The translations under genes and the position numbers were made by a program. Below the pieces are notes generated by a model. It was not told where the DNA came from, did no database searches, and saw only the letters and a program-made list of their open reading frames with translations. From Candidatus Pacearchaeota archaeon (GTDB taxonomy: Archaea; Nanobdellota; Nanobdellia; Pacearchaeales; UBA284), in the NCBI GenBank assembly GCA_026395795.1, contig JAPLYB010000036.1:1-50600 (forward strand): 50,600 nt of DNA, written 5' to 3'. Shown here in pieces: positions 42,152-46,383 of this stretch. The first letter of the stretch is position 1. Each line of letters opens with the position of its first letter.

Positions 42152-42787
42152 ATGTTAAATGAAAAAAAAGGCAAATTTATTGTTTTTGAAGGCCTAGATG
42201 GTTCTGGAAAAACATTGCAGATGCTAAAAACTGCAAGTTTTCTTTTTGATAATTATAAAAAATATGAGATTCTTTGCGCAAAAGAACCAACCTACATGAC
42301 AAAGTCTGGAAAACTGATAAGAAAAAAACTCGCCCATGATAAAGATCCAAAGAAACAAGGAAAACTCTTTCGTGCACTTTATGTTAAAGATAGAGCAGAA
42401 CACAACAAAAAGATAATCTTGCCCGCATTAAAATACGGGTGCATTGTTCTATGCGACAGATACAGCCACAGCACATTTGCATATCAACAAGCTCAAGGCG
42501 ATGTTTCATTCCAAGAAGTCTTGAATGAACACAAGAAGTATAAAATAAGAAGACCGGATTTAACACTTATTTTTGACGTTCCAGCAATCGTGGCGATTCA
42601 AAGGATACAAAAAGGAAGACGAAAGAATGAACTATTTGAAAAAACTCTTTTTCTAGAAGAGGTAAGACATAATTATTTGAAATTAAAAAGATTCTTGCCA
42701 AAGGACAATATTATAGTTATAAACGGTGATGCACCAGTTGAAGAGATTTTTGCAAAAGTTCAAAAAGAAGTTGAAAAGATAATCTGA
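42152..42787 (+). CDS. tmk: Thymidylate kinase
   Basis: FIVFEGLDGSGKTLQ, DRYSHSTFAYQQAQG. Confidence 0.92.
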   Translation: MLNEKKGKFIVFEGLDGSGKTLQMLKTASFLFDNYKKYEILCAKEPTYMTKSGKLIRKKLAHDKDPKKQGKLFRALYVKDRAEHNKKIILPALKYGCIVLCDRYSHSTFAYQQAQGDVSFQEVLNEHKKYKIRRPDLTLIFDVPAIVAIQRIQKGRRKNELFEKTLFLEEVRHNYLKLKRFLPKDNIIVINGDAPVEEIFAKVQKEVEKII

Positions 42788-42847
42788 ATCTCCCAAATTC
42801 TTCCTGTTCAGCAAGTTTTTTAATCTATCTTTTATTGTTTACTTTAT

Positions 42848-42877
42848 GCCCAGATGGCCCAATGGTAAGGCGCATTA
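42848..42877 (+). other. Orphan tRNA 5' half (acceptor strand plus D-arm plus 5' anticodon stem)
   Basis: GCCCAGA-TG-GCCCAATGGTAAGGC-G-CATTA; tRNA 5'-half architecture, resembling Arg-type D arms, but no matching 3' half ending in TCTGGGC found in the window. Confidence 0.55.
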
Positions 42878-42914
42878 ATAGAAAGATTTAAATACTTCAT
42901 AGTGTTTTTATTAG

Positions 42915-43595
42915 ATGGATTTATCAAAGAGAAATAGAAAAGTTGCGATTTCTAGATGGAAAAAAGTGATAGACAAAGAAAAGAGAGAAATTTCTTCTGA
43001 TAAAAAAACAACTATCTTAAAGGCATCTATTTGCGGTTTCCTAGCTGGTGATGGAAGCGTTCAAGCCAGGGATATGGGGAATTATATCAAATATCAAATT
43101 GATTTCTTTCCAGATGATGAAATCATGCTTGAAAGATATATGAATGATATTAAAGAAGTATATGACAAAACTCCAAGTATAAAAAAGAGGGGAAAAATGT
43201 TTATTGTGAGAATTAGTTCAAAAACAATTGGAGAGGATATTCTGCAAGAAACTAAATTTGGGTTAAAAACATGGAAAGTTCCAAACAAGTTATTTATTTA
43301 TGCTGAAGCCAAAAAATCTTGGTTGAAAGCTTTTTTTTCAGCAGAAGGGTATGTTAATCAGAAATCAATTAAAATTCAAACAGTAAATAAAGAGGGGATG
43401 CTTCAAGTATCTAGGTTACTAGCACATTTTTCTATAAACCATAAGTTTTACAGTTATCTTCCCAAAAATAAGCTCCATTCTAAGGTGTATATTATAATAA
43501 TCTTTAGAAAAGAAGAAAGAAAACGATTTTATGATAAAATTGGGTTTTGGCATTCTAAGAAAATGGAAATACTTAAAAGGTCTATTTCAAATTAG
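42915..43595 (+). CDS. LAGLIDADG homing endonuclease-like protein
   Basis: ICGFLAGDGSVQARD and LKAFFSAEGYVNQ, two LAGLIDADG-type motifs; own TATA (AAAGATTTAAATACTTC) right after the tRNA half. Confidence 0.85.
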   Translation: MDLSKRNRKVAISRWKKVIDKEKREISSDKKTTILKASICGFLAGDGSVQARDMGNYIKYQIDFFPDDEIMLERYMNDIKEVYDKTPSIKKRGKMFIVRISSKTIGEDILQETKFGLKTWKVPNKLFIYAEAKKSWLKAFFSAEGYVNQKSIKIQTVNKEGMLQVSRLLAHFSINHKFYSYLPKNKLHSKVYIIIIFRKEERKRFYDKIGFWHSKKMEILKRSISN

Positions 43596-43602
43596 TAATT
43601 GT

Positions 43603-43718
43603 GCCGCGATCGCGTAATGGTATCGCAAAGGCCTGGAATAAGAATCAATGTTCTTAACAATTCCTATCCACAAAGCCTTGCCCGCAAGGGCATCGGGGTT
43701 CGATTCCCTGTCGCGGCG
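43603..43718 (+). tRNA. tRNA-Ser (GGA) with ~35-nt intron (about 43639-43673) after position 37
   Basis: GCCGCGA...AAGGC-CT-GGA-A[intron]A-GCCTT, long variable arm GCCCGCAAGGGC, T arm CGGGG-TTCGATT-CCCTG, TCGCGGC G. Confidence 0.92.
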
Positions 43719-45983: not shown

Positions 45984-46250
45984 TTATTTAGATTTTCTAG
46001 TTTTTAAATTTTGTTCAACTTCAATTGATTTTTCAAGAGCATATGCTCCACCAGTGAATCTTTTTCCACATGATTTTGATTTGCATTGCCATAATCCTTT
46101 AGCAATTCTTTTTGCAGCAAGTTTCTTACAGAAAGGACATCTCTGTCTCTCTTTTCTTTTTTTCTCCACTTCAAGCCATTTTTCCTTTACAGTACTTCCG
46201 TATCTTACTCCAAATCTCCCTGATGCTCCAACTTTCTTTGTCTTTCCCAT
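45984..46250 (-). CDS. rpl37ae: Ribosomal protein L37Ae
   Basis: MGKTKKVGASGRFGVRYGSTVKEKWLEVE...CPFCKKLAAKRIAKGLWQCKSKSCGKRFTGGAYAL. Confidence 0.92.
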   Translation of the reverse strand: MGKTKKVGASGRFGVRYGSTVKEKWLEVEKKRKERQRCPFCKKLAAKRIAKGLWQCKSKSCGKRFTGGAYALEKSIEVEQNLKTRKSK

Positions 46251-46309
46251 TGTACTATGTTTATTTTTATGAAATTCGGTTTTTAAAACTATCTAACCGA
46301 TAGGTAATA

Positions 46310-46383
46310 TGGGACTGCTGGGATTTGAACCCAGATCACGGGTGCCCAAGACCCGAATACTAACCAAGTTATAATACAATCCC
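46310..46383 (-). tRNA. tRNA-Pro (TGG)
   Basis: GGGATTG...CGGGT-CTTGGGC-ACCCG...CTGGG-TTCAAAT-CCCAG...CAGTCCC A. Confidence 0.92.

Follow-up and report, generated by a model that had tools for sequence, protein, structure and literature searches.

An orphan tRNA-Ser 5' half in a Pacearchaeota archaeon as the probable displaced exon of a gene entered by a LAGLIDADG homing cassette

Architecture of the locus

Here, we examine an orphan tRNA 5' half and the adjoining LAGLIDADG homing endonuclease gene in a stretch of 50,600 nucleotides (nt) from Candidatus Pacearchaeota archaeon (GenBank assembly GCA_026395795.1, contig JAPLYB010000036.1, positions 1 to 50,600 of the forward strand), hereafter the window. 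The original prediction, which concerned positions 42848-42914, held that a tRNA 5' half stands there behind a TATA-like tRNA promoter and breaks off straight into the promoter of the endonuclease gene. All three statements agree with our reading of the locus (Table 1). GCCCAGATGGCCCAATGGTAAGGCGCAT comprises 28 nt with the acceptor strand, the D arm, base 26 and two anticodon-stem bases, the T-rich element TTTTTTAATC lies upstream, and TAATAGAAAGATTTAAATAC, the TATA of the LAGLIDADG gene, directly follows the half with no gap. A comparable T-rich element also precedes tRNA-Ser in two relatives (L054 and L052). The complete tRNA-Ser(GGA) beyond the endonuclease gene begins 7 nt past the stop codon and is the sole Ser(GGA) gene detected in this genome.

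Table 1 Features at and around the orphan half (positions within the window)
Feature	Positions	Strand	Basis
Thymidylate kinase (TMPK) gene, upstream neighbour	42152..42787	+	
T-rich promoter element of the original tRNA-Ser gene, tRNA type, TTTTTTAATC, at ~-32 to -23	42816..42825	+	sequence
Orphaned 5' exon of tRNA-Ser, tRNA positions 1 to ~28, GCCCAGATGGCCCAATGGTAAGGCGCAT	42848..42875	+	sequence, comparisons
B recognition element (BRE)/TATA-like presumed promoter of the endonuclease gene, AAAGATTTAAATAC	42881..42895	+	sequence; inferred from archaeal promoter consensus
LAGLIDADG homing endonuclease gene, 226 amino acids, two motifs (AGDG, D46; SAEG, E144)	42915..43595	+	
Presumed promoter of the tRNA, TATA-like ATACTTAAAA within the last endonuclease codons, at ~-34 to -25 relative to the tRNA	43569..43578	+	sequence
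Complete tRNA-Ser(GGA), intron of 35 nt at 37/38 (43639-43673)	43603..43718	+	

The half is assigned to tRNA-Ser by two comparisons. It is identical at 27/28 to 29/29 nt to the start of Ser(GGA) in a relative of the same order (L052), where a short noncanonical intron in the anticodon stem separates the matching 5' exon from the remaining tRNA, and at 29/30 nt to Ser(CGA), a gene that the window's genome carries intact on contig C34 and whose tRNA product begins GCCCAGAUGG. The half scored higher than all 200 dinucleotide shuffles, and at the sequence level its match to tRNA-Ser is far beyond chance.

The endonuclease and the tRNA-Ser behind it

The window endonuclease matches the Pfam family LAGLIDADG_3, and its nearest solved structures are PI-PfuI and I-DmoI, both by sequence and by predicted fold (predicted local distance difference test score, pLDDT, of 95). 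The catalytic acids D46 and E144 are invariant in an alignment of 18 sequences, which argues for selection on nuclease activity. Judged by its domain, its two motifs with acidic residues and its modelled fold, the protein is a LAGLIDADG homing endonuclease. The fold and the two motifs with catalytic acids are common to I-DmoI, PI-PfuI and the window enzyme, although I-DmoI and PI-PfuI are rRNA-intron- and intein-encoded, whereas the window gene stands alone before a tRNA.

We searched for relatives in 207 genomes of the order and 382 genomes of the class, two overlapping sets. The window enzyme belongs to a stand-alone LAGLIDADG subfamily of ~230 amino acids that is sharply set apart from inteins and other members (19 genomes at E < 1 × 10−47; next match at 4 × 10−37). 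In 22 of the 22 loci examined, the endonuclease gene is immediately followed by a complete tRNA-Ser in the same orientation, which starts -3 to +40 nt from the end of the endonuclease match; 16 of these tRNAs are of the GGA type, five CGA and one TGA. The same holds for a further copy in G493, a genome of the same genus as G378, and for three broken endonuclease relics (G222, G436 and G414). Thus, of the earlier description of a complete, unrelated tRNA-Ser within 8 nt of the gene, completeness and distance stand, while "unrelated" does not: like the half, the downstream tRNA is a tRNA-Ser, and all relatives examined show this combination.

On the endonuclease tree, loci of like isoacceptor type group together (an equally low value was reached in 1 of 200 shuffles), and the window endonuclease falls within an all-GGA clade (support 100/99) that covers several families. 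The bearers are small-genome archaea of one class. One relative, L120, is a Woesearchaeota metagenome-assembled genome, and the endonuclease-bearing group therefore probably belongs to DPANN.

Remnants ahead of the endonuclease gene

Four loci (the window, L093, L147 and L153) have a near-complete tRNA-Ser 5' half upstream of the endonuclease gene, and several others have a D-arm piece there. We scored 20 testable endonuclease loci with one scoring scheme and a cut-off score of 22, and used as controls 48 tRNA-Ser(GGA) genes without a full endonuclease. A score of at least 22 was obtained at 9 of 20 endonuclease loci compared with 1 of 48 controls in the directly adjacent interval and 0, 2 and 2 of the 48 controls in intervals further upstream (Mann-Whitney P = 3 × 10−5 to 9 × 10−4 for the scores). 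No convincing 5' remnant was found upstream of the control genes, either the 20 with introns or the 28 without. At most endonuclease loci with a D-arm piece (the window, L091, L146, L147, L148, L153, L154, L156 and L157), the motif of the D-arm 3' strand, GGTANNGCRY, precedes the endonuclease match by 36-47 nt, with one to two mismatches in some of them. Remnant matches mostly stop at tRNA position 25-29, and many lack the acceptor strand.

Two relatives retain enough of the old gene for base pairing to be read. In L153, the complete tRNA that follows the endonuclease gene has a 3' terminus with which the remnant acceptor pairs at 7/7 positions. At L093, the endonuclease gene and a complete Ser(CGA) are enclosed by a 5' half and a 3' half of the target, which pair with each other at 7/7 positions, compared with 3/7 between the old acceptor and the 3' end of the complete Ser(CGA). 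At this locus, the endonuclease gene and a whole tRNA-Ser therefore lie inside another tRNA-Ser gene.

Empty sites

In G343, genes for TFE, a phosphoesterase and tRNA-Ser(GGA) stand in a row without an endonuclease, whereas in its congeners G378 and G493 the phosphoesterase gene and tRNA-Ser are separated by the endonuclease gene. As judged from gene order, this same-genus empty site shows insertion at a pre-existing tRNA-Ser gene. Two members of the window's own family (G008 and G010) have tRNA-Ser(GGA) immediately after a TMPK gene, again without an endonuclease. Elsewhere (L091, L146 and L148), the insertion lies between the S10 ribosomal protein gene and tRNA-Ser, a neighbourhood that occurs in other archaea too.

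We also noticed a different LAGLIDADG gene that abuts tRNA-Ser at the S10 site of G373 (L196, G373:C4:23300-26500, minus strand, ~1911-1240), where a congener carries the subfamily endonuclease. The 5' end of that tRNA-Ser has an extra insertion after ~position 7.

A displaced exon and the points against it

From these comparisons, we consider it likely that a homing cassette entered a tRNA-Ser gene at ~position 29 and left a complete tRNA-Ser behind, with the orphan half as the displaced 5' exon of the old gene. Disruption of a tRNA by a homing endonuclease was one of the two explanations put forward in the original prediction, and it is supported, with the further finding that a complete tRNA-Ser always directly follows the endonuclease gene.

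Several points weigh against this reading. The orphan exon is identical to the downstream Ser(GGA) at only 18/28 nt, and its acceptor pairs with the 3' end of that tRNA at 5/7 positions; because of this mismatch the window locus is no simple duplication, and donor and recipient must therefore have differed or undergone conversion. About half of the endonuclease loci have no significant remnant, and a frameshift or a stop interrupts the endonuclease gene in L093, L098, L151 and L162. The empty sites nearest the window are ambiguous, as the orthology of the G008 and G010 TMPKs to the window TMPK is unsure. Furthermore, the recurrent architecture, the remnants, the empty site, the relics, the conserved catalytic residues and the fold are observed, whereas cleavage at the tRNA, mobility, the direction of events, expression and promoter use are inferred. 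Finally, the moving unit could be either the 5' part of the tRNA, which L153 fits, or the whole tRNA, which L093 fits. Since the displaced exon is still intact in the window, either the insertion is recent or the flank was converted from another Ser gene.

Alternative explanations

Integration into a tRNA gene usually yields a displaced piece together with a restored tRNA, which is the outcome expected if the locus were the leftover of an integrase-type element with a tRNA-Ser attachment site and the endonuclease its passenger. Archaeal tRNA genes do commonly serve as integration sites (PMC3218864). However, nothing but the endonuclease gene lies between remnant and tRNA in the loci with near-complete halves, no integrase is present, and the sole constant part is the same endonuclease subfamily with its conserved active site, so that we regard such an element as highly unlikely.

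Slightly less probable again is a very long tRNA intron that holds the endonuclease gene and whose removal would join the old 5' exon to the 3' portion of the tRNA downstream. The left junction, at ~position 25-29, does fall where relatives carry short noncanonical introns. Nevertheless, the old acceptor pairs poorly with the 3' end in both the window and L093, the acceptor strand has gone from many remnants, a complete tRNA follows the endonuclease gene, and neither a group I intron nor a separate 3' exon was detected ahead of that complete tRNA.

A chance partial duplication of a tRNA-Ser gene beside an unrelated endonuclease gene could have drawn on the Ser(CGA) of C34, given the near-identity noted above. 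However, other genomes share the arrangement, with sequences that differ and a spacing that is alike, and the controls are without it; the comparative data have largely refuted this explanation already, and we give it very little chance.

The remaining alternative, also raised in the original prediction, is a true split tRNA, in which the 5' half would be transcribed and trans-spliced at a bulge-helix-bulge (BHB) motif to a distant 3' half, as in Nanoarchaeum equitans. The earlier failure to find a 3' half in the window extends to the whole assembly (G000; 957 kb, 44 contigs, 87.5% complete), in which no second tRNA 3' end TCTGGGC was found, the sole one being that of the complete Ser(CGA). 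A partner would also be unneeded: the proposed check for intact copies found Ser(GGA), Ser(CGA), Ser(TGA) and Ser(GCT) genes, all intact. A 5'-half-like match on contig C27 has no tRNA 3' part behind it. We considered the 3' pieces of Gln(CTG), Gln(TTG), Glu and Trp as possible split halves and rejected them, as their 5' parts lie tens of bases upstream; pattern search and re-reading identify all four as cis genes with introns after the D arm, and the genome therefore gives no evidence of trans-splicing. Like the split genes of Nanoarchaeum and Thermoproteota (PMC3218864), the window half has its own promoter, but it is without a 3' half and needs none, and the corresponding piece has decayed in relatives. 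Although the half retains its promoter, an intact acceptor strand and the D arm, and a partner could sit in the ~12% of the genome that may be missing, the half has no pairing extension and runs into another promoter, and a split tRNA is the least probable of the four alternatives.

A possible mechanism and the role of introns

If the half is a displaced exon, the cassette would consist of the LAGLIDADG gene with its own promoter and of a replacement tRNA-Ser, either its 5' part as a minimum (positions 1 to ~29) or, in some relatives, all of it, with the replacement promoter located within the last endonuclease codons. A presumed tRNA promoter does lie in the last endonuclease codons or at the stop codon in relatives as well (e.g., TTTATAAA in L150, L154, L157 and L158). 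The enzyme would cut tRNA-Ser genes near the junction of the D arm and the anticodon arm, and repair from the donor copy would leave the old 5' exon, the endonuclease gene and a complete tRNA-Ser in that order. The host would thereby retain a working tRNA, the useless old 5' exon would decay, and the endonuclease gene would decay later.

Introns in tRNA-Ser(GGA) are associated with the enzyme. Among genomes with a Ser(GGA) readable by our pattern, which represents one D-loop type, an intron in the 5' anticodon strand was present in 10/10 with a GGA-type endonuclease compared with 42/117 without one (P = 8 × 10−5 unstratified; P = 0.007 within families). Ser(GGA) has no intron in three pattern-readable genomes that carry the endonuclease on Ser(CGA) (G286, G312 and G348). 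The intron of the GGA-type loci is not required, as the window, L098, L161 and G493 are without it. The sequence distribution suggests that this intron either shields the restored gene against the enzyme or moves along with it. The latter would resemble collaborative homing, in which a free-standing endonuclease is combined with an endonuclease-less intron at its cut site (PMC2988022), as the GGA loci usually pair the endonuclease with a short intron near the insertion position. In contrast to that system, the intron here would be a BHB tRNA intron rather than a group I intron, it is absent in the window and some other loci, and the cut site is a presumed one.

More tentatively, and in our view somewhat doubtfully, the system may act as a natural form of cleave-and-rescue, in which the endonucleases would cut uninterrupted tRNA-Ser while the replacement would escape cutting through a short BHB intron or an altered sequence at the cut site. 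The intron might then outlast the endonuclease and so spread noncanonical introns. If true, this would provide a concrete origin for noncanonical archaeal tRNA introns. An older proposal links tRNA introns and split tRNAs to protection from mobile elements (discussed in PMC3218864), and it would become testable with these loci.

Known analogues and implications

By analogy, the nearest known counterpart is found in the mobile open reading frames (mORFs) of fungal mitochondria, which replace gene ends in Allomyces (atp6) and Glomus (atp6, atp9, cox2 and nad3) (PMC3630166). There, an endonuclease gene, mostly of the LAGLIDADG type, enters an essential gene with a partial gene copy, producing a complete hybrid gene and displacing the native part, as we propose here. 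The locus and its relatives exhibit features typical of mORFs, namely an endonuclease gene inserted in a gene, a gene part present twice, and a relative with the uninterrupted gene at the same locus (G343 versus G378 and G493). The mORFs, however, replace the 3' ends of protein genes in mitochondria, whereas here an archaeal tRNA gene is affected at its 5' end, and its new promoter seems to lie within the endonuclease gene.

Another comparison is with intronless homing and the homing endonucleases that stand free in T4-like phages, such as SegB in the tRNA region (PMC2988022). As in the window, the SegB gene is outside an intron, beside its presumed target and linked to tRNA genes. SegB nevertheless acts on an intergenic tRNA region and without a replacement of this kind, such enzymes cut far from their own genes, and they are of the GIY-YIG/HNH types and reside in phages. 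No displaced half gene is described for T4-type free-standing endonucleases, unlike at the window locus.

We found no published description of the present arrangement, which is seen again in more than 20 other archaeal genomes, in the open literature searched, with most subscription journals outside its coverage, and it looks like an apparently undescribed way to parasitise an essential gene without killing the host. If so, a selfish gene could inhabit a tRNA gene that is essential and often present only once, with no need of a self-splicing intron, by supplying or mending the piece that it breaks. This would be a natural parallel to engineered cleave-and-rescue drives. The loci supply endonuclease candidates with a predicted tRNA target, and they caution annotators that 5' tRNA pieces in such archaea are not necessarily split tRNAs.

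Further observations

The frameshifts in L093 (~1495) and L098 (~1490) fall in A runs and might reflect either decay or sequencing error; the L098 copy is shortened by its frameshift. At L195 (G493:C38), ~1.36 kb of extra DNA lies directly behind the cassette tRNA-Ser and is absent in the congener G378.

Many tRNAs of the window's genome (Phe, Val, iMet, Gln, Glu and Trp) bear noncanonical introns in the D arm or the 5' anticodon strand, with intron-bearing sites at C10:3743, C5:661, C23:49486, C14:12808, C15:19691, C41:40952, C26:1587 and C36:230. ARAGORN reported only three tRNAs in the window, and genes with noncanonical introns were missed. On contig C26, a second, different LAGLIDADG gene (L251, 706-1596) overlaps the start of tRNA-Glu(TTC) (1587 onward), which has an intron after the D arm; this is possibly the same strategy on another tRNA. 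A Glu 5' remnant was looked for upstream of that gene and none was found.

A related endonuclease group is located just after tRNA-Pro(TGG) and before the ribosomal protein L37ae gene in L103, L106 and L112; tRNA-Pro and L37ae also adjoin in the window (46250-46310), where no endonuclease gene intervenes. An A at the first anticodon position is unusual for archaea, and two genes of the window's genome appear to have one, tRNA-Pro (AGG) at C14:13305-13378 and tRNA-Leu (AAG) at C41:34413-34496.
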